Assembly: GCF_000003815.2 (NCBI RefSeq)
Contig: NC_049979.1
Span: 13,920,850-13,984,849 of the forward strand
Direction of reading: 5' to 3'
Source: Branchiostoma floridae
Lineage: Eukaryota; Chordata; Leptocardii; Amphioxiformes; Branchiostomatidae
Length of the DNA: 64,000 bases
In this document: in pieces, positions 1-45,600 of the stretch
How positions within the stretch are numbered: position 1 is the first letter of the stretch
Layout of the letters: every line of letters starts with the position of its first letter
Position numbers and translations under genes: made by a program
Notes under the pieces: generated by a model
Told to the model about the DNA's origin: nothing
Databases searched by the model: none
Seen by the model: only the letters and a program-made list of their open reading frames with translations

Positions 1-3000
1 TGCCAAAATGAATCTAAAGTCAAAGATAGGCATGTGAAAGGACAGAAAGAAAAAAAAATCTATTATTGGTTGGGGGAGGTACCAGTACAGAAATTTCCAG
101 GTCCGGACATGAACCTGGACCTGATTGTCTGTGGAAACTTGAGAACTGGCAATACTCAAAACAATGGTAATTGGTCAATTTTGCTACAAAGGAATCTGTT
201 TGGTGGATTATTGGACTCCCACTGCATTTTAAAATCCCATCTCCATGTAATAAAGGCTAACTGTCTCTGTACCTTTGACTGTAGAAACTTGGTGCAATTG
301 ACTACACTCTACTTGACTTCGCTCTTGTTGTCTTCTTGGCCCCCCGGTTAGACCCCAAATGGCTGCCGACATAGTGTGTCCATTTTGTAATTGGCGAAAC
401 CTGTTCCTCTGTTTTTTTTCAGGTCTGTTTTTTTTCGGATTGGTCCAAGAAGAAAAATATTTTGCACCCATATGATGTACTGGTCCCTACACCTAACTGT
501 TGGTATACCATACTATGCGTGTTTAGTCCTATGTTCAACCTTCCTGGCCACTTTGATTTCATACTGAAGGCAACTTTTTTTTTGGCCAAACTTTTTTTTT
601 ATTCGCTCGCTCGCATCAGTTTTGGAGTTCCCGGAGGATGTCATCCATATAATCAAATCAACATGGCCTTAGATATTGCGTAATACAAAAAAATGTATGA
701 CTTAGAAGACGAAAAAATACACAAAAAGTAAGAAAACTCGTTTTTGTCTCTGAAATTCATTGAGTTTCGAATTCTACGAACCACGCAAGCGTGACGCAAG
801 AGCAGTGAGATACCACCTTTAACTGGTAAACCGCCTCATGGCGATACGCACTGATTACTAGATACATATCCGGCCAGATGTATTTGATCTACTCACAATG
901 AAATGAACCACTACTCTTTTCGATAAGTGTGCTGGGTTCTTCAACGTGCTCAAGGTGTGTCACTCCTCAAACATGGTCCTATCGGAGGGACTTCCCAGCG
1001 AGATACTCATTTACACCTTAGTTAAATGAGGAAATCGCTGTTAAAGACCTTCCCCAATGACACGACATTGAGACCTATCTGGGATTCCAGCTCGGTACCT
1101 GCAGAGTCAACAGACCATGCCACCGTATCACTGTGCTTTCTCCGGGCGGTGAGCCTCTCCCACCGGCCGCCAGCCTGGACCGATGTTTACTTGTGGCTGA
1201 TTGGATGATCCGTCAGTCGCGTGAAGCTGTTTGCTCAAAACCCCACTGTTTGTTGTCGGAAGACAAAAATTCATCAGCGGTACACAGGCGCTACTTTTGC
1301 AAACATACGGCCCGTCTCCTCGTAAATGGTTTGGAACTCAGGAACTCAGTAATATTCACATGTGGAATTTTTGCTATTTACACGAAAAATCACTGGCTGT
1401 GTGTGGGGGCGTGGCCTTGTGTGTGAGTGCGATAAGGGAGCGCTGTTGCCAACATAGTTGATTTCGATACAGTATATTGTTAGTGGAAAACAGGACCACC
1501 CGTATCAACGTTAACAAATACACATGTATTTCAGACAACTGGAGGGAATTTCCATCGGAATGGTAGACATGGTTTTCAATTGTCAATACCAAATAAACGT
1601 GTCTTCAACAAGACACAATGATGTAATTCTAGTATACACATCTAGCGCAACATCTCAAAAAACGTAACGCCCGAACATACCATAGTTGAACACGGGATGA
1701 TGACAATCTATATGTGAAGCCACTACATTCAGCTTGAAATGATTTGATGTGTCATACGCCAGCAGTATTTTAAGGCAACAAGAGTTACAGAACTCAGCTT
1801 GAATCTGAACCCCAACAGCGCATTTATGAATAGTGCACAGTGTCATGAATTCCACATACGTAATGTTACACCTGTACTGGTTCACGACGTTAACTAGTTA
1901 ATATATCATGTTCCATCCGGATCTAAAACAGGGTATATAAACAATAGAAGTTATCTTAGTACTGTCCATAAACCATAAGTTAATCCTATATATATATTTG
2001 TTGTCGTACAATCACATGTAACATGTCCTCGAAAAACTATGTAAATCAACTTATACACTTTTACTCACGAAACTTAATGATCGTGATGTCACACTGTTTT
2101 ACACGTCAGCATTCGGGAAAATTCTTTCATAGCATGCTATGCTATTATCCAATAAGACTGCTCAAAGATTTGTATGTACACAGCCATGTACTGTGAAGGA
2201 AAGTTAATGCCTTAAGTCACACCAGGCCATCAATACCAGGCTGATAGTTCTCGAACTAGAGATTCAGTAACCATTAGATTATCTTAACCTGACCTAAACT
2301 GTATGCAGATATCATAGAGCTATCAATATTCATAGCACCAGCTAGGTCATCCCAATGCTTCTTTCTGCAATCTTAAGCTATTATCTAACAATGTCTTTTA
2401 CAATTCGAAAACAGAAAGCTTCTTTCATTAAACCATTTAAAGAACAGGTTTAGGCTATAGAACACTCATAATCCACAGTAATCGATCCTGACGGTTGCAA
2501 AATGAGAGATGAACATCTGGGATAAAGAATGGTACAGATATCTCACTCTCGTTGCACGGTCTAGCTCATAGCCAAGTCCCTTCATCCGGCAATGTTGTCA
2601 GATCATCAGAAGCGACGGCCTACAACTGCCGACATCGAGAGTCGTCCAAGGACCGCTGGGTCTTCCCATCTCGGTGAGTCTGCACCGTCACTCTCAGCTT
2701 GCAGTCATATGCCTGAAAGTTGCATACAAGGACATAAAATGTTAAGCATTTCTAGCTTGTTGCGTCGTTGTCAGACAGCAATTATGCCCCTGTCACATTG
2801 TTGACGATCTTCGGCTGTACTTCTTGATCACTGGAAGGTCTGTCGATTTTAACATCTACAAAGAGTCACGCGTGTTTTTACCCTAAAAATGTACCCTGTC
2901 ACATAGACGAAGGCTCGCGCGATTGTCTAGGAATACACGATAATAAACCCATGACATGGCACCACCTCTTGCACGCAGGCGAGGTGAAACAAAACGTTCC

Positions 3001-3311: not shown

Positions 3312-6300
3312 CTACCTTTGACACTCTTGAAAGAGGTCGAAGGAAATTAGGCATGGGCTTCGAGATAAAAGTTTACGGAAAGTTAAGTCAGACCATATGT
3401 CATTGTATGCCATGACGTATACTACGAAGCAAACAGAAACATCTGTAAATCCCCCTTTCTCTGCAGCTGTGGCAGATACTGTATATAGACTCATTTGACA
3501 TCGCAGGTCACCGAGGTCATGGTCCTGCACGGTCAGCGACTCCATGTCACTGGCTGTGATTTGTGGTAACGACAAACCTATAAATCTTTACTTTTCAAAC
3601 ATTAGGAAAGACATGCGTAATGCAATTCAAATTCAGTTTCTCTATCAGCAGGAGAAATGGATACTACCGTTCTGTGCTAAATCCAACAAACTGAATAACA
3701 AGCCATCTACCATACGGATGTGTGACAACGTCATAGGAAACGACGCATATGGTTACCTTTCCATCTACAGGTGGACATTTATCTGTCATTTCAGATGCAA
3801 ACGCTTTGTGGTCTCTGGGACAAGCTGTGGGAGATATCGTCAGGTGGAGGTCATACGTCGTCGTGCCCGGAACTGGTGTCTGTTAATAAGGCGGAGAAAA
3901 AAATCAGCAACACATTAATGCGAAAATTTGACGCATAATGGCTGACTGCAACACTGTGTTGTGTTACTGATGTATTTCAACTGAAGACGCATTCAACAAT
4001 GTCGTGTTTGAGTTTTCGACTATCGTCATAGACAGTTAAATTGTGACGGTGTTACTGAAAGAGGAATCCGTTGTCGCCAATATCACGATAGTCTGTCATA
4101 CGAAGCTGCTATACCTTATCCGGCTTTGTAATTTTACATTAACACTTTCATCACCTGAGTCTTGGAGTCCGTCAATTCACCCATGACGTAGATCTCATCG
4201 AAGCTGGTCATCTGGTTCATCCTGTCGACGGCGAAAGCAGCTGCGCCGTATTCATCCATGGGGTAGTCTTTGCTCGGTAGAGAGGGTTGGTCCCCGTAGC
4301 TGTAACTGTAGCTATAGCTGTAGCTTGACGACGATGCTTGCTTTCCTCCGTTGCCATAGGAATAGCTGTATGAGGAGTAGCTCTGTTTAGGTTGCTGAGT
4401 TCTTAGAGAACTCAAAAGGTATCCAGCGTTGAAGTTCTGTGGATGAACTATTTCCGGAGGTTGTGCTACTTGCTCAATGTAGCCAAAACTTGATTGACTT
4501 GGTCTGCCATTTTTCTGACTCGGACCGAAGACGGTCTGTTGAGAAGTCATTCTTCCGGACCCACTTGTCTTTACTTGGGACTGTCTGGTCTGCTCTGTGT
4601 ACCTGGAGCCGGATGGATAGACTACTGTACTCCCACCACTTGATGCTGGAAGAATCGGACCCATGAAGCCAGATGTATAGCCTCTAAACCCTCCATTTTG
4701 CCGGGCACCACCTGCCTTTTGATTACCTTGATTCATTGAACTGGAGCCTTGACGGAAACGTGAGTTCTTCCCCCCGCCTTGCATAGAACCAGACACTTGC
4801 CCACCGGCCTTCTGGTTTCCTTGCTGGAGTGAGCCGAATCCGCGACCAGCCCCACCGGCCTTCTGATTACCCTGTTGCAAAGAGCCGAATCCACCACCTG
4901 CTCCACCAGCTTTTTGATTTCTTTGCTGCAGGGAACCAAAATTTCGACCAGCTCCTCCTGCTTTCTGGTTTCCTTGCTGTAACGAACCAAAATCTTGTCC
5001 AGCCCCTCCTGATTTCTGATTACCCTGCTGCAGTGAGCCGAATCCGCGACCAGCCCCACCGGCCTTCTGATTTCCTTGTTGTAGAGAGCCAAAGCCTCGA
5101 TCAGCCCCTCCGGCTTTCTGGTTTCCTTGCTGTAGAGAACCAAAATCTTGCCCAGCCCCTCCAGCTTTCTGGTTTCCTTGTTGCAGAGAACCAAAATCTT
5201 GCCCAGCCCCTCCAGCTTTCTGGTTTCCTTGCTGCAGAGAACCAAAACCTTGTCGAGCCCCTCCAGCTTTCTGGTTTCCTTGTTGCAGAGAACCAANNNN
5301 NNNNNNNNNNNNNNNNNNNNNNNNNNNNNNNNNNNNNNNNNNNNNNNNNNNNNNNNNNNNNNNNNNNNNNNNNNNNNNNNNNNNNNNNNNNNNNNNGATA
5401 GCTCTCCTGCTTTCTGGTTTCCTTGCTGTAACGAACCAAAATCTTGTCCAGCCCCTCCTGATTTCTGATTACCCTGCTGCAGTGAGCCGAATCCGCGACC
5501 AGCCCCACCGGCCTTCTGATTTCCTTGTTGTAGAGAGCCAAAGCCTCGATCAGCCCCTCCGGCTTTCTGGTTTCCTTGCTGTAGAGAACCAAAATCTTGC
5601 CCAGCCCCTCCAGCTTTCTGGTTTCCTTGTTGCAGAGAACCAAAATCTTGCCCAGCCCCTCCAGCTTTCTGGTTTCCTTGCTGCAGAGAACCAAAACCTT
5701 GTCGAGCCCCTCCAGCTTTCTGGTTTCCTTGTTGCAGAGAACCAAAACCTTGTCCAGCCCCTCCGGCTTTCTGGTTTCCTTGATTCGAGCCCATGCCGGG
5801 ACCATATGGAAAGAAAGTAGACGTGTCAAGTCCTGATGCCGGAAGAATCTGTCTCCCACCAAACCCATTGTATCTTCCTGTGTCCTGAGGAGGCCCAACT
5901 ACACCGGCTTTCTGGTTCCCCTGGTTCCCTTGTTGGATTGAGCCAAAGCCAGGACCTCCAGCTTTCTGATTGCCTTGCTGCAGAGAACCAAACCCTGCTC
6001 CCCCTGCTTTCTGATTTCCTTGCTGCAGCCTACCAAAGTCTGATGGTCCGGTGACTTGGCTCGCCTTCTGGTTGCCCTGCTGTAGCGATCCGAATTGCTG
6101 GCCCGCTTTTTGGTTGCCCTGTTGCAACGATCCGAATTGCTGGCCTGCTTTTTGGTTGCCCTGTTGTAAGGAGCCAAATCTTCCTGCTCCGCCGGCTTTT
6201 TGGTTGCCCTGTTGCAACGATCCAAATTGCTGCCCCGCCTTTTGGTTGCCCTGTTGCAACGAGCCAAACCTCCCGCTTCCACCAGCTTTTTGGTTGCCCT

Positions 6301-9300
6301 GCTGCAACGATCCAAATTGCTGCCCCGCCTTTTGGTTGCCCTGTTGCAACGAGCCAAACCTCCCGCTTCCACCAGCTTTCTGATTTCCCTGCTGCAACGA
6401 GCCAAACCGTCGGCCACCTGCTTTCTGGTTGCCTTGTTGTAGTGACCCAAACTGCTGGCCCGCTTTCTGATTACCTTGCTGCAACGATCCGAATTGCTGA
6501 CCTGCTTTCTGGTTGCCCTGCTGCAAAGATCCAAATCTTCCGGCTCCACCAGCTTTTTGATTTCCTTGCTGTAGGGATCCAAATCCCTGCGTACCGCCTT
6601 GATTCTTACCAGAACCCATTCTGACTGTAAAGCCTGTAAGCCGACCTTGCCGTGGCGCCTCACCGCTAAGTCTGGACTGTTGCTTCGACTGAGATCTCCG
6701 AGTAGATGCTTGAGACGCCGATTTTTTTGAGCGAGATTGCAATGAAGCCTGTTGTGGTCCAGCAGGTCCCTTCATGTTTAGCGACTGTGCCGCCACCTGG
6801 ACCTGACAACTGCTCTCTGTCATGCGGTAACCTGACCGTTGCTTAACGACATGTACTTGACATTCTTCAACCTGAGCAAAATACAGGAGAGTTTTACATG
6901 ATGTCAGAAAAATTGCAATAATGTGTACTCGTTATATATATCATGTCACGGCATGTTTATCTAGATATGATATGCCATGCCATGTATAACGTTACATGTG
7001 ACAAAGTTTATTGACAGCTTTTTCCTAAAGTTGGAATCAACGGCTATGGTCAAAACCACTTGTACCATCTGATGAAATGTGTACATACAAGGATATGGAG
7101 ATACCAATGTCAATCAAAAATCCTTTGGTGCTACATTTAAGAGACTGTGACTTTTCTGTATATACATACGGAGTTTTTGTGATGGTTGATTCGATAATGT
7201 CCGCATGAATGCATGCACAAGATCTCAGAGTGTCATTGACACACACATATTTACACATGGAGGAGAATTAACGTTACTTCACATGCATTTTTCCAAGCTA
7301 CTCGAGGAATGTTTGCACGATTCCAGTAGGGTTATTTCGGGTCGTTCGAAAGATGTATCCCATCACTGCAAACATGGGCGTGCTATCGGTCGGTACTAAC
7401 GATGGGATGTAACATTCACGTTCAGTTGCTGTTATTTAGCAAAATGAATAAGGAAAAGTTGTGCCTTGTTGCATGTGGTTCGGTTAGGTGCATGCTATCC
7501 CAATGAAATACAATTTTCAAGCAAAAAGAAGGTTGAATTGGGACTTTTCATAAGAACCTTATCAAGATGACAAGATAGATGCTATCTTACCGTGCGTCGT
7601 TGGTCACGTGTTATCTCTATATCCAGCTGGTACAGACAGCCACCGCTACTGTATGACTGAAATGACAAGATATGCACCATCTCATGTCTGATCACTGCAA
7701 CAGTGCAACAGTGTTGCGGGAGGATCTAAGGTCTAAGTAAGGTCATATCTGATCGACTAGTGCATTCAAAACACACCATGGTATCTTTGGGGTTATGACA
7801 TATCAAACTGGTTTCTTTATTTTGACATATAAAACTGAAATTGGCCTTTCTAATTATGCACACAGACAGTACTTGTGCAAATTTATATTTACGATGTTCA
7901 CCTTTATAAAGAAATACAATAACATAGTTAATGGAAATATGAATACAACAGTGGTGAAGTATCATTTTATCTGTAATAACGAGAGAGAGTAAACCCGCAA
8001 TGTTTTCAAACGGTAGAGTTTGCATTCCTAAAAGGGGATATGGTGTGAGTGGCGAGATAGGGATTAAAATGCCTCAGATTCTGGGGTTCTGCCCTCGCTT
8101 CAGACGGGAAAATAATGCTAAGATAACAACAGAGTAATGAAAAGTCTCCACACTTAACACAAGTATCATTGTAACAATCATTAGGAACCACATTAGCATT
8201 GCTATCATTTGTCATTGGGTTTGGAGTGTTTTTAGGCTGGAAGGTCTCCGATATTTGTTCACAATGGAAGAATCAGAGATACGTTTACTGTTCCGACCTC
8301 TGTGGGTTTTCTCCATTTCACAGTTACCAATTTGTCTCAATTGGACTACATTATGTCTATCAGATTGCCTTTCGAATTGTGTCACAGTATGTCTCTTGAA
8401 CATCATTTTGCAGGAGCATTGTGTGGGCCACACGTACGTCTCCGTCTCCGGTGGGACATGTTCAGATTTACCCTTCTGCGCCTCGAATACCTGGGATTCT
8501 GCCGCGCCACTAGCCAGTCCCTTAGCACTAAATGCACCATCGGAGGCAAACACACTTCTCGCGAGGGAGAAAGTGACCCGTCACGTCTTAAAGACATTCC
8601 TATCCGAGTGGCATTGACCTTGTGCCAAAGATGGCGACCGGATTAGCCCAAAGAAGACCCAGTTCTACTACGTGTATGTGGAATTTTGTGCATAACGTAC
8701 ACTGTCTATCCTAAACTGTCAGTCTGGACAAGGTAAGAGTAATGACTGGCTTGATTAGAAAACTTACAACGGAGAAACGTCTGTCTTTACAAAAAAATTC
8801 ATTTTAGTCATGAAGCATCTACTAGCTAATACGCACCATTGCCCAGTCGTTTGTATTCGTTTTTACACTTATAATATGCCATTTTTTGCCATGACATTAT
8901 ATTTTCTTGCAGAACAATATTCAAAACAATAGATATAGAAGCTATTATAAGGTATACAGGAGATACGTTCTTTCGCGCCATCTAACTATAAGGTCCCATC
9001 TGGTCCTCACATTTAAGTGTCCTCCCGAGGTTTCGGCAAAGGACCCAACACCAAACTGGCAAATAGCTGCTACTGGACATTTGGGTTCAGTAGCGGCTGC
9101 CCCAGCCTCTACTGCTGACCCACTGGATAACCTTTGGCTACCCCTCCCCAGCTGACCCTCTTTCCTCTAAAAAGTTCTTCCTCTGTATAAGCAAATCAGA
9201 CATGTATGTAGAGAACGGGGTAAGGGCTGTCAAGTGCATCAGCGTGAACTGATTCATCTTCTGGAAAACCAAGAGACCACCAGCGCTTCAAGGGTCAATA

Positions 9301-11063
9301 CAGGGCCACGACAATATTCAACAAAGTTCCACAACACATTTGCTACAACGGTATGGATTTCACTCCGACCGACGGTGGAACTCGTTATGGTAGTTACAAA
9401 CCTAACAAAAAAACTGATTCAATTTTACATCTGAAATAAGTAAATATAACACAAAATGATACATCATCATTTCACTTAAATAAAAGCACTTCTATTAACG
9501 ACTGGAGTAAAAAAAAAAGGGTACGAAAATAGCTCGATCCATCAAAACACAGAACCAATATGTACTTTTAAAAGCAATAGTGCTCTCCAGAGACAAGTGT
9601 CATTTGCTTAAAGCCTACATTACTACGGATACAAATGTGAAAGTACAGAGTAATTGTACAAACTTTTCCAATGGTCTACGTTCCATTTGAAACAGCTGAA
9701 GGGTCTTCATCCAAGTAATCTATTAATTCTACTTAAAGCTGAATGAGTGACGCGAAATTAAAAGAAGCAAGAAAAACTCATCTTTGACTGAACGGATTCT
9801 ATTCATGAATTTCGTATATCAAAAGATGGACTTGTCCATAGAGTCGGTACCCTGTGTACGCCTGCTAGTGTCGTTATGTCTGAAGAGAAATAAGCACTTC
9901 CCTGCTGGATTTCCACCTATCAGGTCGATTACATTCTTATGTCACTTCGCGTTTCATGTTTTCAATCTGAATTTTTCTACTTGGAAATTGACCTTACTTT
10001 TCATAAGATACCAGACAGTATGAATTACAAGGCAGAACAGGCTGAAAGCAATGAAAGAAATAATGTTTTCTGTCTACTATTCCATATCCGTTGTCTTTGT
10101 CGGGCGTTGAGCAAACATCACCACCCTACTTTAGAACCATCACTCTTCCGTCGGATACGCCTGGACAAAGAAAGGCATAGCCACTCAGTTCCCCTCTTCA
10201 CCTTATGGTTATGGTCCATCAGTTAAAGCGGACGCAAAGATTGCCAGTCATCAAATTTCGGGCCACGTCTAGAAATTATGTGTGGCCTCAAATATGTTCT
10301 AATTTAGTTCAAAATCAAAACAGCAATTTAGTTCAAAATTAAAACAGCCATAACCAGTATACACATCTGCAATGCCCAGTTAAGTCCGGGATAGTTGGTG
10401 CCGTCTGTTAAGGATGAAACCGTGGGCAGGCGGACAAACACTGCCTTCTCCCTACTGGCGATATGTGGTGTTTGTTCAGTGCGGGAAATCACGACTTGAT
10501 CGTTAAGTTGCCAGACTCCCTCTCTGCTCCCCCTGTGAATGTGATTTTGCTCGACTTGATGTGAATGGAGAGTACGCTACCACAGTTCAGATATTGTTGA
10601 ACGCAGAGCTGAAAGTGAACGCGAGCTTTTCGCACCCCTGTGGCATACAGCAATATCACCCCACTGCACACTGGGGGCGGGGCCGCAGACCCGGCACCCA
10701 GACAGCGTCGGACGCGTCGAAAATGCAAAGTAATAATTTCGACTACTCTAAGCAAGCGGAGCTGCAATAACACTTTCGTTAAAGTGATGACTTTAAATGT
10801 TCTCCGGTATTTTCATAATCTTTAGTCGAAAAGTCTCTATCGTGAATGTGGTACAATGTATGATCGTTTCCTCTTACCTGTTGACTTGCGCTGGTAACAC
10901 GTAAAAGTTGCGCCCTGAGTTCCTGTGCCGCGAAGTACGCCAGTTGCTGCACGACGCCGTCGTCTGTCCGCAAAGTCACGGCCCCGGAGCGGTAGGCTCC
11001 GTGGGCAGAAGGAATCAGCAAAACCGAGAGCACCGCGGCCAGGATCCCGGCAGAGCCCACCAT
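3312..11063 (-). CDS. Secreted two-domain cystatin-family protein with giant Gln/Gly/Lys repeat linker
   Basis: Five exons, all joined in phase 0: 10878-11063, 7591-7656, 4155-6871, 3757-3879 and 3312-3524. The ATG at 11063 opens a typical signal peptide ([18 protein letters not shown], then SAHG). Domain 1 is [19 protein letters not shown], then the small exon with [11 protein letters not shown], then VEECQVHVV...CQVQV. Domain 2 starts near the end of exon 3 ([13 protein letters not shown]...KTQ), continues in a 41-residue exon ([11 protein letters not shown], two Cys) and ends with [10 protein letters not shown]...VSVC. TPVPG resembles the cystatin QxVxG inhibitory loop with the Gln replaced. 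Between the domains lie about 870 residues of repeats. Total length is about 1,100 aa, uncertain because of the gap. The first- and second-exon calls rest on phase, splice consensus and fold pattern. The exact start of exon 5 (3524) is the weakest join. Inhibitory activity and target are unknown. Confidence 0.78.
4957..5745. repeat. Near-identical 340-bp block on both sides of the gap
   Basis: Bases 4957-5296 recur essentially unchanged at 5406-5745, an offset of 449, flush with the gap. Even the degenerate unit with QKSGG and the order of unit tails are the same in both copies. This could be a recent tandem duplication or an assembly artefact, such as two haplotypes or one repeat placed twice. 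Confidence 0.85.
5297..5396. other. Assembly gap (100 N)
   Basis: Exactly 100 N inside the coding minisatellite, the usual placeholder for a gap of unknown size. The reading frame before and after the gap differs, so the true length is not 100. The frame on each side is individually open and encodes the same repeat, so no real frameshift needs to be assumed. Confidence 0.97.
7657..10877 (-). other. Intron 1 of the repeat-linker cystatin gene
   Basis: This intron lies between the signal-peptide exon (donor CAG|GTAAGAGG at 10877) and the 66-nt second exon (acceptor tgtcatttcag). I found no further exon with cystatin character. Short open frames on both strands, for example around 8.2-8.6 kb, lack splice or domain support. 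Confidence 0.5.
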
Positions 11064-20604: not shown

Positions 20605-21723
20605 TCAACCCGTGATGGGGAGGGTGCTCAGGTCTGCGCGGCAGCGGACGAAGTTGACCTCCCGCCGGACGTTCTGATCGTCCTCGATGACATTGCCGGA
20701 GCCTTCTACCTCCAACGTCACAGCGTTGTGTTGGACAATCTCAGAGGAGCACATCAGGTTCTGCAGACAGTTCGTGTTAAAATGCAAAATTGAGTAGTAA
20801 GACGAATGTTCGTAGGCATGTCTTGAAATAATGCTACATCTAACAAGAGTTCGGAAACTTCATACCTCCGTGAAATATCTAAAGCCTTTTTTAATCTTAT
20901 ACAGATGTTGTCTTTATTATTTACATAATCCATGCATGGTGAAGTTCATGTCACAGGTGTGAAATTCCTTTCATTTACCACTAAATAAAATTGTGGAATT
21001 TTGCAAAAGTATGCTCTAGATGCAAATAATACATATAAGGAAGTCTTCTTATAGAAAACACTGGAATCAACAATGCCTATGGTCCCCACTTTTAAGAACA
21101 GTGCAATGATAAGGAAACAGGCAATAACCTTGTTTAAGTTCCAATAAGTACGTAAAGATAGAAGTTATCACTTACCCTGCCGTGGTCGCTCACAACACAT
21201 TTCTCCTCGGCCTCCACCGCGGGCATCAGCGGGTCGTTACGGCAGTCGGACAGGCCCAGCCTGATGTCAAACTTCTGGTAGGTCAGCTCAGTTTGGGGGG
21301 ACTGGAATGGTTTGGAGCAATTGCAAGATCGTCGGAATGAATACCGAAGTAAAGAACCGACACACAGAGTTTTAATCGTATCATTCATGTTTCTTTGCAA
21401 AATGGTGACACTGACGGTAATGTCAGCGTGATGTAGTTGTGCCATACATGTCGTGTGAAATACGGGTATTTTAGTGAATGAACATGGAAAGTTGTGCGAA
21501 AGGATCCGAAGCACAGCACGACTGGACTACAACACATTCTACTCATATCTTTGTCCCTTACTTCAGCTGAGCGGATGACCTCCTCCAGCACATAGAGGTT
21601 CGGCAGCCTGCTGTTGGCGTTAATGATGTCCACCACGTGGAAGACGGAGAACCTGATCCCGGCGGGGTAGTCAGCTCCTGCCGCCAGGGAGAGCAGCCCC
21701 AAAACACACACCAGGCCCAGCAT
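20605..21723 (-). CDS. Secreted single-domain cystatin-like protein (147 aa)
   Basis: Three exons, phase 0 throughout: 21562-21723, 21176-21301 and 20605-20760. The ATG at 21723 starts a clear signal peptide (MLGLVCVLGLLSLAAGA). The mature part has FSVFHVVDIINANS (N-terminal helix), FDIRLGLSDC and a second Cys 15 residues on, then LMCSSEIVQHNAV...FVRC in exon 3. This gives the four cysteines in two nearby pairs typical of secreted type 2 cystatins, and the length fits that family. The QxVxG position reads SPQTE, so classical papain-type inhibition is doubtful. Splice sites are canonical (GAA|GTAAGG, AGG|GTAAGT). The assignment to the family is by fold pattern and exon plan, not by search. Confidence 0.85.
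20836..21120. repeat. Partial copy of the dispersed repeat family (left end)
   Basis: Starts GAGTTCGGAAACTTCATACCTCCGTGAAA, closely matching the left end at 15674-15702, and continues with TTATTTACATAATCCATGCATGGTG, a version of the neighbouring text there. It lies inside the last intron of the single-domain cystatin gene and has no right terminus. Confidence 0.65.
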
Positions 21724-24167: not shown

Positions 24168-26789
24168 TCAGCCCTGGATAAGCGATGTCTGCAGGGTGGG
24201 CACGCCGCACTGGACGTTCTCCACGCGCCTGCGCACGGCCCCGGAGTCCGACGTCTGCTGCACGACCGACCCGGTACAATCTTGGCTCTGTTAACGAGAA
24301 AGGGCAAGTTTGCAACATTTTCTGCAGACACGTATTGAGCTGATGGTGAATAATAGACGCATACATGTAATTCAGAAGCTCTGTATAACTCACCCTGTGT
24401 GGTTCCGGTACAGGGCAGCGAATGGTGGCCGTCTGCGCATCCATGGTTCCCTTTTGACAGTCGGAGTAGGCGATGCGTATGGCGAACCTGTGCACAGACT
24501 CCACATCGGAAACCTCCTGCAAATTTGTGAAATGTGTATTAATATGAAGTGCATATAAAACAAATAGGTATGGTCATCATTAATTTCCAAACAAATGTTT
24601 TATGTACTATTGCCATGCCTAACCACCCCCACCCCACGTCAAATCTATTATACGTCAGCTTCTGGTCTCCATCAAAGTTTCCCCATTGTTGAGAAACAAA
24701 CGTCAAATTTCGTCCAGACAGATAACAGTTAGAACAGAGTGTCTCTATCAATCAATAATTTTCAATAATACAAAATTTAGAAATACCTGCTCTCCTGATT
24801 TCATCACCGCCTCCAGCACCCACACGTTGTCGTGCCCGCTGCCGCGGTTGATGGCATCGATGGCGAAGTAGATGGACCCGCGCATTCCGCCATCGTACGT
24901 CGTGAAAGAAACGGCCGTCAGGCTGTCGGACAGGACGGGCCTGACGGCGTCCCGCTTGGACACGGCTTGGACCGCGTCACATTCCAGCTCTGCAATGCGT
25001 CTGCGCACACCACTGTCCGACAGGTACTGGATCACAGTGCCCTTGCAATCCTGACTCTGAAGAGAAGACCCAAGCACAACTCTGTGAAGTTACTGTACAG
25101 TTATGCTTTCTTTACTCCTAGTTATCGTTTGAAAATCTACGAGCATTTCCTCTGCAAAATGTGCTTAACTTATTTTATAATGCATCCTTATGATCATCTT
25201 ATCGATCAATAGCTTCAAAGGGCTCAAATCACAACGTTCTAAATTTTTACAGAGTCTATTGAATAGACATACAGGACAAAGCCATTTAGTCATCGGTGTA
25301 GATACGACACGGAGTCGAGAAAAAAGACACAGTTGTCTCACCCTGTGTGGATCCTGCACAGTGCAGCGCTCGGCGGACATGATGGCGTCAGCTGCACCGT
25401 TGGGGCAGTCGGAGTAAGCCAGGCGGATAGCGAAACTGTGGCGAGACTCCTCCCTAGACACAACCTGGAGTGCGAAGTGTAAAAACATTTCCTACTGTCA
25501 AATATCAATAGAAGACATCACATATTGCAACGGAGTGCCTACAGAGATCGTCAACTAAAATTCTAACAAAACAGAATACCGAAAAGCCAGTTAACAGTCA
25601 AATAGCTTCTTCAAACTGTTTAACGTTAATCAAGTAGCGGTGCCCCATATCATGAGCTTCCCTGCTCATTACCAGTTGATGAGCGTAGAGCAGCATACAG
25701 CATGACAACTTTACTTGTCTGTGCTAAAGACTTACGCACAGTTTTCTTCATCTCTTGCAGCAGTACGACTGATTTCTTATTTGTCTCAACGACAGTCTCT
25801 TAACACCAAAACCATGTCCCTCTGGCTGCTCAGTAGAGTCCGCACAAATGAACAACCCACGAGGAATAAACTAACAATAGCGACCAGCTTGCACTTCTTA
25901 CCAGTTCTCCTGATCGCAGCACCTCCTCCAGCACCCACTGGTTGTCCAGCCCGCTGCGTTGGTTGATGGAGTCGATGACGAAGTAGATGGAGCCGCGCGT
26001 GCCGGCCTCGTACGTCCCCGGCACGCTGGCAGAGACAGCATCGGTGAGAGGGCCAAGAGACTCATCAGTCAGGGCCTGCGCTCCGCCACACTCGGTAACG
26101 ACAAGTCGCCTGCTTACACCAGCGTCCGACAGAACCTGAGTCACAGCAGCCGTGCACTCCACACTCTGAAAAACAGCAGAAGAGCTTGTCGAACTAGAGT
26201 TTGTGCCAATTTTGACTGACGTTGGTGTTAGTAATTTAATTTCTTGCAAAAATACCATTACCTGATCAATACTATCCTGGGAAAACTAGATATTAGTAAC
26301 TTTGTATTTGCCATGAAATAGTATTGTCATCAATGATCAATGAAATCTGGAGCACAGCGTAAACGATCACAAATGATCCCCTCACCCTGTGCGGGTCCGG
26401 CACGGGGCACCGTTGAGAGGCTGCCAAAGCATCAGCCGCACCGTTCCGGCAGTCCGAGTAGGCCAGGCGGACAGCAAACTTGTGTCGGGTCTCCACTCGA
26501 GACACGATCTGGGAGGAGACCAGACAACAGCACGTCATCAAGGCAATAGCATGAAAGGAAAAGGCCTGCACAAAAAACGAATTGAAGAATAGCTTGTGGT
26601 GTGGATTGGTAAGAGTAAAACATTTTCTACCTCTTCACCAGAACGCAGCACCTCCTCCAAGACCAGCTGGTTGTCCAGCCCGCTGCGGCGGTTGATGCCA
26701 TCGATAGCGAAGTAAACAGACCCGCGCAGACCTGCGTCGTACGCCACCGCCAGGGAGGCCAGGGCCAACAGACACGCTACACGGAACAT
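24168..26789 (-). CDS. Secreted three-domain cystatin-like protein (393 aa)
   Basis: Seven phase-0 exons: 26631-26789, 26386-26508, 25902-26165, 25342-25464, 24787-25056, 24394-24516 and 24168-24287. The start is the ATG at 26789, giving signal peptide MFRVACLLALASLAVA. Each domain repeats the same plan: RGSVYFAIDGINRRSG...VLEEVLRSGE | a 41-residue exon with FAVRLAYSDC and CPVPDPHR | a segment with two Cys about 20 apart (SVECTAAV...VTEC). Exons 3 and 5 join the end of one domain to the start of the next. Four Cys per domain match the secreted cystatin disulfide pattern. The QxVxG loop reads EIVSR, LVVSR and QEVSD, so it is not canonical. Three cystatin domains in one secreted chain recall the kininogen heavy chain, but nothing after domain 3 resembles the kinin or His-rich parts. 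The last exon, ending TGA at 24168, was found by phase and Cys pattern. Confidence 0.87.
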
Positions 26790-33600: not shown

Positions 33601-36600
33601 TCTGGAAGGTGTCCCCTGTTAACGTGTATTGAGGGGTCCCATCAACATACAGGGTGTAGTTTCGAATGATTCCATTGGGAAATGCTGGAGGCATCCATTC
33701 TGCTCGGATGGCAGTGGAGGATAATGCAGTGAGAGCTGGTGGGTCCAGTCCAGCTGGAATGTCTGCAATGGTATTGATTATGGCTGGTGGGCTGGGTCCT
33801 GTACCACCAATGCTGTTAAAGGCTTCCACAGTGTAGCTGTACTGTCTTCCAGGGGTAAGCCCATAGTCGGTGTACCTTGTTTCACTCTCATCATAAACCA
33901 AATTTCCATCTCTTCGGACCTCATACCGTCGTATAACACCATTTGGATACAGTGGCTCATCCCATGTTACTTCCACCACGGTTGAACTCAGCACACGAAG
34001 GGTTGGAGACTGTTGGTTTGTTGGCCGGGCCTCTGTTGTGCGTGCAAGAGTGGTTGGGCTGTCCGTACATCCACCTCCTGTGCAAGCTCTCACAGTGAAG
34101 CCATACTCTCTGTATGAGATAAGACTGTCAACAACACACATGGTAATCAACCCAGAGCATCTGGTTATTCCGTCAGCCTTCAGCTCAAAGTTGTTGATCT
34201 CTCCATTTAGTATTCTGGGATACGACCATGTTGCCTGCACTGCTGTGGAGTTGATGGCAGCAATGACAGGTGCCTCTACTTGGAGAGGAGCAGTCTCCAA
34301 TGTGCGTCTGGTTGCTGGCTGACTGGTGGTGCATCCGCCTGCTGTACATGCTGTTATTGTGTAGCTGTACACAGTGTAGGGCTCCAGTCCTGGGTCCTGG
34401 TAATCAAACAGCCTCGAGTCTCCTGCTGAGAAAGAGATGGGTGCGCTGTCATTCCTCTGCAACTGGTAGCTAACAATGACTCCGTTGGGTGTGGCTGGTG
34501 CAGTCCATTTTATCCTCAGTGTGCGAGCGTTTGAGCCAATGTATTCTACAACTGGAGCCTCGACACTGGCAGGCGCAGCCTGAGCAGTTTCCACACGGAT
34601 CCAGTCACTATCCACAGAGCCAATGCTGTTGTGGGCCCTGACTCTGTATTCGTATACAGTGTATGGGGCCAGGTCACTGTCCACAAACATGTAGTTATCT
34701 TGATCTGTGTCTGTGGTCTCATAGACAACACTTTCACCTGTTTGTCGGATGTTGCGGCCCAAAGACCGTGGTGTTAGTCGCCTTATCACTTCATATCTGA
34801 TGATTCTCCCATTGGGGTTGACAGGTCTTGTCCAGGTAAGGACGACGTGTGTGCCATTCAGCTGTGGTGCTGTTGGTTTTGGAAGAAAATCAGGAAGAAT
34901 TTCAGCAGTGGTCAGTGCCTGTCTCTCGGAGCGAGCACATCCCGCCAATGTGCATGCTTCAAGAATCAATGTGTATGTTGTGTATGGTGTCAGTCTTCGG
35001 AAAGTATACTCCTTGGTCACACCTATATATAGTGCTGGCATTTGTATCTGTCCATTTTCACCAATTTCGTAAATGAGATACTCGGTGATGGCTCCATTTG
35101 GCTCAGTGGGTTCGTCCCAAGACAAGTCCATTGAGTTGCCATCGGTAGCTTTGACAACAGAGAACAGTCCAACACCCCTTGGTGCAGCTTCTGCTGTTCT
35201 GACTGGTGTCCAAGGGCTGGTTGTGGCACCAGCACTGTTCATGGCTGTGACCCGGACTCTGTACTCTGTGTACGGCTTCATGCCACTGATGGTTGCCTGT
35301 TGTCTGGGGCTTGCGACTGTCACAGCAGTAACAATAGGTTCTGGAAGGGTGGGGTCATTGCTTTGCTCTTGGTACTGAACAATGTACTGTGATATTTCAC
35401 CATTTGGTGTGGTCGGCGGTTCCCAAGAGATGCTGATAGAATATGCCCCAACTGCCTGAGCAGCAGGTTTCTGCATCCCGGATGGCAAATCTTCAAGTGT
35501 CCTTACAAGTGTCCAAGGGCTTTCTGTCTCTCCCTGGGAATTTCTGCTGATCACTTTGTACTCATACTGGGTGTATGGTTGGAGGTTTGAGTCGGTGCCT
35601 TTTCTTTCTTGGTTGAGGGCTGTTTCCAAGACAAGCAGACGTTGGTTGGTGCCGAATTCTCTCCTGAACACTTGGTATCGAGTGATCTCCCCATTGGCCT
35701 GCAGGGGAGGTTCCCATGATATCTCCACAACTCTTGGTCCAACGGCGACCAACTTGGGGGCCTCCTGGCCACTTGGTGCTGCTTCAAGAGTCCGTGCAAA
35801 CACTTTTGGACCCAGCCCACAGTCAGCAGTACATGCCATCACCCTGATTTCATATTCAGTGTACGGTGTCAGTCCTGTTACATTGAAAAATGTTTGGTTC
35901 CCTACAGACCTTCTCTCTCCTCCTTCCATCCCATAGTTGAGGGTGATGAAGTAGTTTTGGATGATACCATTGGGTTCTGCAGGGATATCCCATTCTGCAT
36001 AGATCACAGAATCACTCATGACAGTAACATCAGCAGCAGGGATGCCTTCAGGTGTGCTGGAGGGGGTTGCTTGTCTCTCCGGCATGCTCCGTCCAGTCCC
36101 CACAACTGTGTGAGCCTCTACATGGTAGATGTAGGTTGTACTTGGCGTGAGACCTGAGTCAGTGAAGTTCATGTCACCTCCACTGTAGATGACACTACCG
36201 TCCCTCACCAGCTGGTAGTGGGTGATGATGCCGTTTGGACGTCCTGGTTCTGACCAGTACACCTCAATTTCAGTTGAGCTCACCACTACAAATCGAGGGC
36301 GAGACACCTCTGAAAAATCAACACAAGAAATATGTTATACTTAATCGTGTTGATTTGGGCTTGCATAAATCTAGCTATTAGCTGCGCATGTGCCGTGACC
36401 TCCGCCCTCGCGTGACTCAGCCTAACACGGCCGAGAGGCATAGATTCTAGGGTTCCGCTCATGTTTCTTAGCATTAAAGTTTTCTTCCAAGCCCATCCTA
36501 GTCTCTTTGCCATTATGAGTGAGAGTGCAGATAACTAAGTAAACAATCTATCTTCAACTATCATGTCCAAAAATGCAAGGATGACTACAAGGGGTTGAAC

Positions 36601-42600: not shown

Positions 42601-45600
42601 CAGTGTCAGAGGGTGGGAATGACATTGTTTGCATCATGCCACCACCTGTGTACCTGAGGTCATACCTCTGGACTCCTCCTTGTAGATCAACAACACCTTA
42701 AGAGGAAAGTAGGATATAAATTTTGTTTAATGTACATGACATCATCTTTGGCATCTGTATTTTCAAAGTGTTGTGCATTTTTATGTAGCCCGTAAAGCTT
42801 TTGATAAAAACTGTACAAAAGAGGAGATTTTCATTATTGCAATGATACGTAAGCAAAAGCAGTTAATGAAACCTTGGAAATAGGATTACAACTCACTGGG
42901 TGGTGTCCACTGCACCCTGATAGCAGTGTGATTGAGGGTTGTAGCTGTCAGGTTGGCAGGAGCGGTAGGAACACCTGGTAGGGTGGTGGCCTCTGTAGCA
43001 TTACTGGTGTAGGGGCCGATGTCATTGTATACTGTCACCTGGTACTCATAGGTGGTGTACCTGGGGGGTAGGGGATAAACAACTTTATTCAACTCGCCAT
43101 TTAATCTATACAAATGCAGATGGATTCTTCTGAAGATCTACCATAACCACACCAAATGACTTATAATAATTGAGAAAGAAAGAACATCATTTACATGAAA
43201 GGCCATTTGGCAGCCAAGCCTGGCAGTAAACAAGAAATGAATGACCTTACCTGGAAAGACTTCTGTCATCATAGGACAGACCAGTGCCAGAATACACAGA
43301 CACGGGCGACAGTAGGTCTGGAGGTGCTGGTACTAGAAGCTGCCTGGTCTTGGTACGAATAAGCTCATATCGGATGTTGGGCCCATTTGGGAATGTAGGA
43401 GGCTGCCAGAAGATAGAGATGTAAGAGTCGCTGATGGGCGTGGCCTCTGGAGCAGCCTGTCCTGCAGGTACTGTAGCCTGGGTGGAGGCTGCGGTGGCGC
43501 TGCTCTGGGTACAGCCAGCTGCAAGGAGGGGTCAAGGTTCCATTATTTTTTTCTCACATACAAATGTATATAATGTTGTAATGTCTTATGATATCACAAT
43601 GTTCTAATTATGTTAAGAATTTCCACCCTACCTGCTGTGCAAGCCTGAATGCTGACAGAATAGCTGGTGTATGGAACCAGGCCCACCACCGTGTAGGAGG
43701 TAAGGTTGGTATTGGTCAGCTCGATCCTTGGGTCAGGCATCCTGATGACATATCTGGTCAGGGCACCGTTAGGTTGGCTCGGTGCCAGCCAAGTCACAAA
43801 CATGGAGGTGGGGCCAAGAACCTGGACTGTGGGAGGGGTCAGGCCTGCTGGTCCTGGGGATAAAGAAATTGTTTTGTTTGTGTCACATAAACTCTGCCAG
43901 AAAGTACATGACATACATGTAGATAGTATAGATACATGTATATATAGGTACCAAATCATACGTTTAGCCCCTGGATGGTCTAAAGATGCAAAATACCAGC
44001 ACAGTAGCACTAGCAAGTAAAGAAAAACACATAGAGATTGACACAGACACTAGATGAAGTGGGATAGGAATGATATTTTGCTTTCCATAGTGGAATACAG
44101 GGGTACCTAAAACAACAAAAGCTAATTGTTCTCCTTGTGACGCCAGGAAAAGGAAGTGCTACCTCTAGAAGTGCAGGTAGGTTGAGAGAGAGAACAGGCA
44201 GAGGAAGAGTTCTTTCTGCTGCCTGTAGAGAGAAAAAAGCACGGAGGAGAAAGACTTTAAACATGTACAACAAGATCACACCGTTTACATTCATGGCATG
44301 TCTAAAACATTGAAATTATAGCTTTCTAGGACCATAAGAGTGATCTTATTAGAAGCACAAGGAAGTACTGGATTTCACAAGTGTTCAATAAAATTAATTT
44401 TATGGATGTCATCCCCTGGAGATGCCAAAACCAATGGAAGAGAGCAAAAAGAATCAGGCAGAAAGAGAACTTGTTTAAGTTCAAAACTTAAGGAATACAA
44501 AACTGGTAACACAAATTGTACCATAGAAAATGTATCAATGATAAATCAGTGTGCCCTCAATTCAAAGAAAGCAACTTAGAAAAAAAAAGGCATTAAACTT
44601 GACTTACTTGCTGCTTGTGTAGTGACTTCAGCCCAGTCACTGTATGCTGGCTCAGTGATATCTTGCACATATGCCAACATCCTGTACTCATATGTGGTAT
44701 AGGGTTGCAAGGTATCAGACTGGTCCAGATATGTCCGTGACTGTGTGGGCAGGAAGTTGGCCACCACATCTGGGGCACCAGAAGAGCCTTTCAGTCTTCT
44801 CTGAAGTGTGTAGAGCCTCAGAATACCATTGGGTGAAGAGGGCTCAGACCATCTGATGGTGACCGATGTTGGGGTTTGTGAGCTAAGACTGGGCGGGGCA
44901 AAGGACCCGGGTGTGGCCGGTGGAGTTGTCACGGTGACGGAGTTACTGCTGGAGGTACATCCCTCCCTGGTACAGACCTCCACTCTGTAGGTGTAGTCTG
45001 TATACGGTGTCAGGCCCTCCATTCGGTACTCGGTTACGTTACTGGGAACCTGCAAACAGAAGAACAGGCATTTGAAGGGAAAGTACCAAATGCACCTTGC
45101 CACTAAAGTGGGATTCTAATCTGTAAATTTCTGTGCAGTTACATGTACGTGTATAATGCTTGCCAACCAGAATCCACCTTGCTGATATGGAACCCATATC
45201 CCTTACTGGAGAGTTAAGTTGTGGCTGCTGCATATCATTGAGTCTGCACAAATCTTCTTTGTCATCCTTAAAAAGCAGCTACTACAAATCATTTACCCAA
45301 ACACATACACATACAATGTATTTCTGACATGAAACGATAAAGACTGTAAGAAAACAGTATGCTGCTACACATCTCCAAGTTTTGGGCTCCACAAACCGTC
45401 ATTACTCACATGTAGAAGGTGGCAGTGGCAGTTAAAGAAACAATAAAACATGGCCGTTGCAATGAATAAGTTAACAGGAATTAACCAACAACGACCTCCA
45501 CATAAATGGTTGTAATGCCTAATGGTCTATGAAACATTTCTGAACCCTAGTTCCACATCAAGGTCCCATATGTCTCCAGTTCTCACTTTGAAAGAATGGT

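Follow-up and report, generated by a model that had tools for sequence, protein, structure and literature searches.

A candidate two-domain cystatin-like gene of Branchiostoma floridae with a long coding repeat in its interdomain linker

Exon anatomy of the repeat-linker gene

A 64,000-nucleotide stretch of the Branchiostoma floridae genome (contig C1, positions 13920850-13984849; hereafter the window) contains, on its minus strand, a candidate cystatin-like gene in which two cystatin-like domains flank a linker that carries a coding tandem repeat. Domain 1 is made up of exons 1 and 2 and the start of exon 3, and domain 2 of the end of exon 3 together with exons 4 and 5. The gene and its features were read from the sequence as follows (window coordinates).

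10878..11063, minus strand: exon 1, with ATG, hydrophobic leader and the opening part of cystatin-like domain 1 up to SASQQ; reads open in phase 0 to a GTAAGA donor; matches the profile together with the remainder of domain 1
7591..7656, minus strand: exon 2, a shortened middle segment of domain 1 (22 residues); 66 nt, AG/GT, phase 0
4155..6871, minus strand: exon 3, with the last hairpin of domain 1, the repeat linker and the first segment of domain 2; AG/GT, phase 0, open to either side of the gap; 2268 nt with the duplicated flank collapsed
4800..6583, minus strand: repeat array, units of 14-19 amino acids, interrupted by a non-repeat island at ~5905-5785
5297..5396, no strand: assembly gap of 100 N between two identical 342-base stretches (5745-5404; 5296-4955) that are probably one overlap left unmerged
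4293..4385, minus strand: Tyr/Ser-rich end of the linker (31 residues)
3757..3879, minus strand: exon 4, carrying TPVPG and the first two Cys of domain 2; at 123 nt it is as long as its counterparts in a neighbouring three-domain gene; AG/GT, phase 0
2620..2712, minus strand: exon 5, with the last hairpin of domain 2 and the stop; acceptor CTTTCAG, phase 0; gives domain 2 a higher profile score than the alternative exon

Every intron of the gene is AG/GT and every junction is in phase 0; exon 3 is flanked by ...TTTTGCTCAG upstream and GTGATG downstream. Exon 3 reads open in phase 0 and, as an earlier, sequence-only reading of the locus had proposed, begins in the last Cys hairpin of domain 1 and closes with the opening part of domain 2, and the fusion exons which that reading described in the three-domain gene are present at 264 nt (26165-25902) and 270 nt (25056-24787). 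The first 20-odd residues of the protein look like a signal peptide when judged by eye, and we infer that exons 1-5 are spliced into one transcript. The predicted protein is 911 amino acids long after the gap flanks are collapsed, with 27 repeat units.

The sequence-only reading had placed the end of the gene at 3312, which is probably wrong, the terminal exon more probably being 2712-2620. With 3524-3312 as the last exon, an open reading frame with a hairpin-like C..C stretch, the domain 2 score against the local family profile described below is 40.0 over 76 columns, compared with 46.4 over 105 for 2712-2620, and the alignment ends before reaching the exon. Its phase-0 acceptor has a pyrimidine fraction of 0.50, versus 0.70 for that of 2712-2620. 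The reading frame at 3312-3524 (minus strand), with its resemblance to a cystatin hairpin, is possibly an alternative or a decayed last exon.

The gene model itself could be in error: the repeat exon may be part of one transcript while the cystatin exons around it come from one or two more; intron 1 exceeds 3 kb, a second candidate for the last exon is present, and the model was read from sequence alone. However, both cystatin pieces lie in frame within the same open exon as the repeat, and their partner exons fit in phase and in profile. We consider such an error unlikely.

Relationship of the two domains to cystatins

The domains were compared with two profiles. One, for the local family, combines the three domains of the three-domain gene with a single-domain gene; the other is an amphioxus-plus-vertebrate cystatin profile that includes two genuine amphioxus cystatin domains from a gene referred to here as L001. 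Against the amphioxus-plus-vertebrate profile, domains 1 and 2 scored 34.9 and 34.7, and none of 150 shuffles reached either score. Against the local family profile, the hhalign score of domain 2 given above was reached by none of 200 shuffles. The intron of human cystatin is located between Q and xVxG, and introns occupy the corresponding position in domain 1 (SASQQ/SYSSGG), in domain 2 (DSKTQ/TPVPG) and in L001 (SASTQ/VVAG). Both domains can be assigned to the cystatin superfamily on profile-level similarity and on a three-exon domain with the intron between Q and xVxG. The proposal of a two-domain cystatin gene whose linker has turned into a coding tandem repeat is supported by common exon anatomy, by phase 0 throughout, and by the profile matches of both domains.

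Several comparisons weigh against this assignment. Domain 1 gave no match to the local family profile, with 149 of 200 shuffles scoring at or above it. Against two vertebrate cystatins alone, both domains were marginal (reached by 1 of 200 shuffles for domain 1 and 10 of 200 for domain 2), and the similarity of the local family to the same two vertebrate cystatins was not significant (E 0.093). Single-sequence searches gave weak results. Scanning four sequences with Pfam Cystatin (PF00031) produced no match, neither domain scoring, and a PDB search with domain 1 returned no match up to E 10. With domain 2, the PDB search returned a protegrin cathelin (E 0.012) and a tick cystatin (E 0.36); its matches at E 0.68 and above are enterotoxin chains, which we take as chance. 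Domain 2 was also under the cut-off of 21 for Pfam Cathelicidins (PF00666), at 16.1 bits and E 0.014.

Inhibitory type-2 cystatins, family I25B, are recognized by their QxVxG and PW hairpins. Domain 1 has QSYSSGG where QxVxG is expected, lacks the first disulphide loop and has no PW; domain 2 has QTPVPG, one residue longer than QxVxG, and again no PW. Because neither domain has QxVxG and PW both intact, papain-type inhibition by either is doubtful. As positions in the sequence rather than observed bonds, the four Cys of domain 2 are in register with those of the domains in neighbour genes, and domain 1 has three Cys without the first loop. Histidine-rich glycoprotein and high-molecular-weight kininogen also combine tandem cystatin domains with a charged low-complexity region; however, theirs is His-rich and located downstream of the cystatin domains, whereas here it lies between them.

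Multidomain cystatins of cephalochordates have already been published (Kordis and Turk 2009, PMC2784779, accessible portion). Those proteins resemble the one predicted here in their repeated cystatin-superfamily domains, and phase-0 fusion exons were also read in L001 and in another amphioxus cystatin gene, L003. In L001 and L003 the linkers are short and the inhibitory hairpin reads VVAG/VVSG, whereas the repeat-linker gene has a linker of ~690 amino acids and worn motifs. The earlier reading was aware of no described cystatin with such an architecture, and none with such a linker was among the matches listed in literature searches, subscription papers and lancelet protein databases being outside the coverage. 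A literature search on QQGNQK gave no match, and among the matches listed for amphioxus, Branchiostoma or lancelet cystatins there was no work on such a protein.

Size, uniqueness and history of the repeat array

The sequence-only reading gave the fusion exon as about 2.7 kb with more than 30 units. This is correct for the assembly, in which 34 NQK[A/S] units are found, 23 before and 11 after the 100-N gap, but both figures may be inflated. On either side of the gap stands one and the same 342-base sequence (5745-5404 is identical to 5296-4955); the runner-up among exact repeats of the exon, at an offset of at least 20, measures 77 bases. Collapsing the flanks leaves 27 units in an exon of 2268 nt that is in frame and open throughout. 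We judge that the two flanks are probably one unmerged overlap rather than a true duplication. The reading frame is no arbiter between the two, because a true duplication of 51-nt units could also keep the frame. Two non-repeat islands in the linker (~5785-5905 and 4590-4710, minus strand) both contain ILPAS with Gly/Pro/Tyr-rich stretches nearby, hinting at a trace of an older, larger duplication.

No copy of the repeat turned up outside this locus in searches of the genome (513,431,437 bases in 431 contigs). All 28 exact genome matches to a degenerate QQGNQKA pattern, CARCARGGNAAYCARAARGC, fall inside the array, as do all 12 matches to a 77-amino-acid repeat query (best 20 candidates), and the non-repeat linker matched nothing in the genome besides itself. 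A dispersed element as the source of the repeat was rejected on these results and because queries with domains 1 and 2 likewise returned nothing but self-matches (3/3 for each).

Codon by codon, the units differ widely in DNA sequence and hardly in protein. The assembled array has 30 units of 12 codons, 22 of them distinct; in these 22, synonymous changes account for 131 of the 136 departures from the consensus, compared to 23% expected. The units are kin by descent, and a binomial p for this excess therefore overstates their independence. An 11-codon comparison gave 118 synonymous changes of 122 in the coding frame (22% expected), versus 12/123 and 0/123 in the shifted sense frames and 45/130, 68/123 and 1/123 in the antisense frames. 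Over nine 51-nt units in succession, 36 synonymous and 2 nonsynonymous changes fall in the 12-codon core, whereas the spacer has 14 and 12. Viewed by column, all 12 third positions are variable versus 6 of the 24 first and second positions (p 3e-5). The core pattern demands F, G, QQ, N and QK, or 7 of its 12 residues, such that invariance at these residues is partly imposed, and it omits 3 of the 27 merged NQK[A/S] units. Not imposed by it are the 36:2 ratio above and the arrangement of the 24 full cores of the merged array, which form one uninterrupted run of 14 units and another of 10 with no unit skipped. Third positions differ by 0.46 between next neighbours versus 0.57 across all pairs; therefore, homogenisation has been limited. 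To judge from these patterns, the array is translated in the coding frame, old and constrained, and the core peptide is kept by purifying selection while the spacer drifts.

The description of the linker as blown up into a minisatellite is apt insofar as the repeat is tandem and coding, but not if it implies a fresh expansion, as the units have diverged widely at synonymous sites and hardly in protein. We reject recent slippage as the main history of the array, given this wide synonymous divergence alongside a near-fixed core. A related possibility is that the gene encodes an ordinary inhibitor with a long neutral linker, the repeat being slippage that is tolerated and has no role of its own. 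Unit length (14-19 amino acids) and copy number do vary, and local duplications occur, as the 77-base exact repeat indicates. Nevertheless, amino-acid change in the core is near nil relative to the wide synonymous change, and the part of the protein that is worn is the inhibitory motifs. We disfavour this explanation and rate it the most improbable of those considered.

Possible role of the linker

Gly makes up 23% of the linker (693 amino acids), Gln 19%, Ser 12% and Lys 5%; Cys is absent, the net charge is +56 and the pI is 11.3. Our leading interpretation, to which we give somewhat less than an even chance, is that the gene encodes a secreted, trappin-like protein of ~911 amino acids, composed of cystatin-like domain 1, a Gly/Gln/Ser/Lys linker of ~690 amino acids, strongly basic and probably disordered, and domain 2, that transglutaminase could cross-link. 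Secretion, disorder, cross-linking and site of action are all features that we infer. Such a gene may have originated in the local family of multidomain cystatin relatives by way of a phase-0 fusion exon, the linker of which would have acquired and then multiplied a QQGNQK-type unit. In the units, Gln-Gln and Gln-Lys recur at even intervals and would serve as transglutaminase acyl donors and acceptors, so that copies of the protein could be cross-linked with each other as well as with extracellular matrix or secreted mucus. The cystatin folds would be end modules, much as trappins couple an inhibitor domain to a transglutaminase-substrate repeat. Ten exon-wise matches to Transglut_N over the cut-off are present in the B. 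floridae genome, on contigs C4, C6 and C11.

According to the accessible text of PMC3110255, trappins join an inhibitor fold to a repeat that renders the protein a transglutaminase substrate, and three cystatins are named as transglutaminase substrates. The accessible text of PMC7556508 describes guinea pig Svp5/trappin as having a very long, basic repeat (pI 10.3) and a poor inhibitor domain. As far as these portions of the two papers go, trappins/elafin and Svp5 share with the present protein a small secreted inhibitor-fold domain and a Gln/Lys/Gly-rich repeat. However, trappins have a WFDC fold, GQDPVK/VKGQ repeats and one terminal domain, whereas here the fold is cystatin-like, the repeat is QQGNQK and two domains flank it. 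The Pfam scan of four sequences found no WFDC domain, and the WFDC domain with GQDPVK-type repeats by which trappins are recognized is not what this gene encodes. The likeness to trappins is a parallel and not homologous.

Modelled by AlphaFold from a single sequence, 393 residues of the array gave a mean pLDDT of 38 with no helix of 4 and no strand of 3 residues. This is in keeping with a disordered linker, although low confidence in a model made with no alignment speaks only weakly for disorder. Two points count against cross-linking. The suggested transglutaminase role draws on composition and analogy. In trappin-2, moreover, none of the Gln and Lys residues in the GQDPVK motifs was found to react with epidermal proteins, according to the accessible text of PMC3110255.

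The linker could instead be a flexible, self-associating spacer, elastomer- or hydrogel-like, that matters for its length, stickiness and softness and requires no enzymatic cross-linking. The Gly content, the Phe and Tyr set at regular intervals with one Phe per unit, the Tyr/Ser-rich tail and the disorder-like model are all in keeping with this, and the linker may resemble FG- and abductin-type repeats. However, a strict QQ-N-QK core next to a drifting Gly-rich spacer (36:2 versus 14:12) exceeds what a generic spacer would need, and we regard this alternative as possible but rather unlikely.

Host defence of the cathelicidin kind, in which the cystatin-like domain would be a pro-part and the basic linker or its cleaved pieces would act on microbes, appears improbable. 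The linker has the high net charge given above, and the protein of the neighbouring three-domain gene scores 24.0 bits with Pfam Cathelicidins, over the cut-off of 21. However, domain 2 falls under that cut-off and is placed after the linker, and each unit is only slightly basic; dibasic sites are few, and no helix is predicted. Furthermore, the protein does not end as a cathelicidin would, its C-terminus being the cystatin hairpin and stop.

Returning to the cross-linkable protein, a bolder proposal, which we hold more tentatively, is that, in a chordate lineage and independently of the trappins of mammals, a cystatin gene came to encode a structural protein that can be cross-linked. Its inhibitor sites would have decayed, the QQGNQK repeat under strong purifying selection would be the working part, and the folds would be end caps or anchors of an extracellular material built by transglutaminase. 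If true, this would be a cystatin-family protein with strong conservation in the linker and not in the inhibitor, and it would parallel the mammalian trappins independently. A codon pattern of wide synonymous change, near-fixed core and drifting spacer marks the residues that matter, and the cross-linking idea is directly testable.

Other cystatin relatives lie nearby. The three-domain gene (window 24168-26789, minus strand) has seven phase-0 exons and, with its Cathelicidins match and no Pfam Cystatin match, reads as a cathelin-like cystatin relative in the lancelet genome. Its single-domain relative (window ~20605-21723, minus strand) has no Pfam match. L001 (C1, 1.21 Mb) and L002/L003 (C1, 13.79 Mb) are amphioxus multidomain cystatins of the canonical kind, having VVAG as well as fusion exons; by eye they are very alike while being ~12.6 Mb apart on C1, and one of the two places is ~130 kb from the window. 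Finally, at window positions 33900-34300 and 44700-45100, a neighbouring gene on the minus strand codes for fibronectin type III sequence (Pfam fn3, E ~1e-11).

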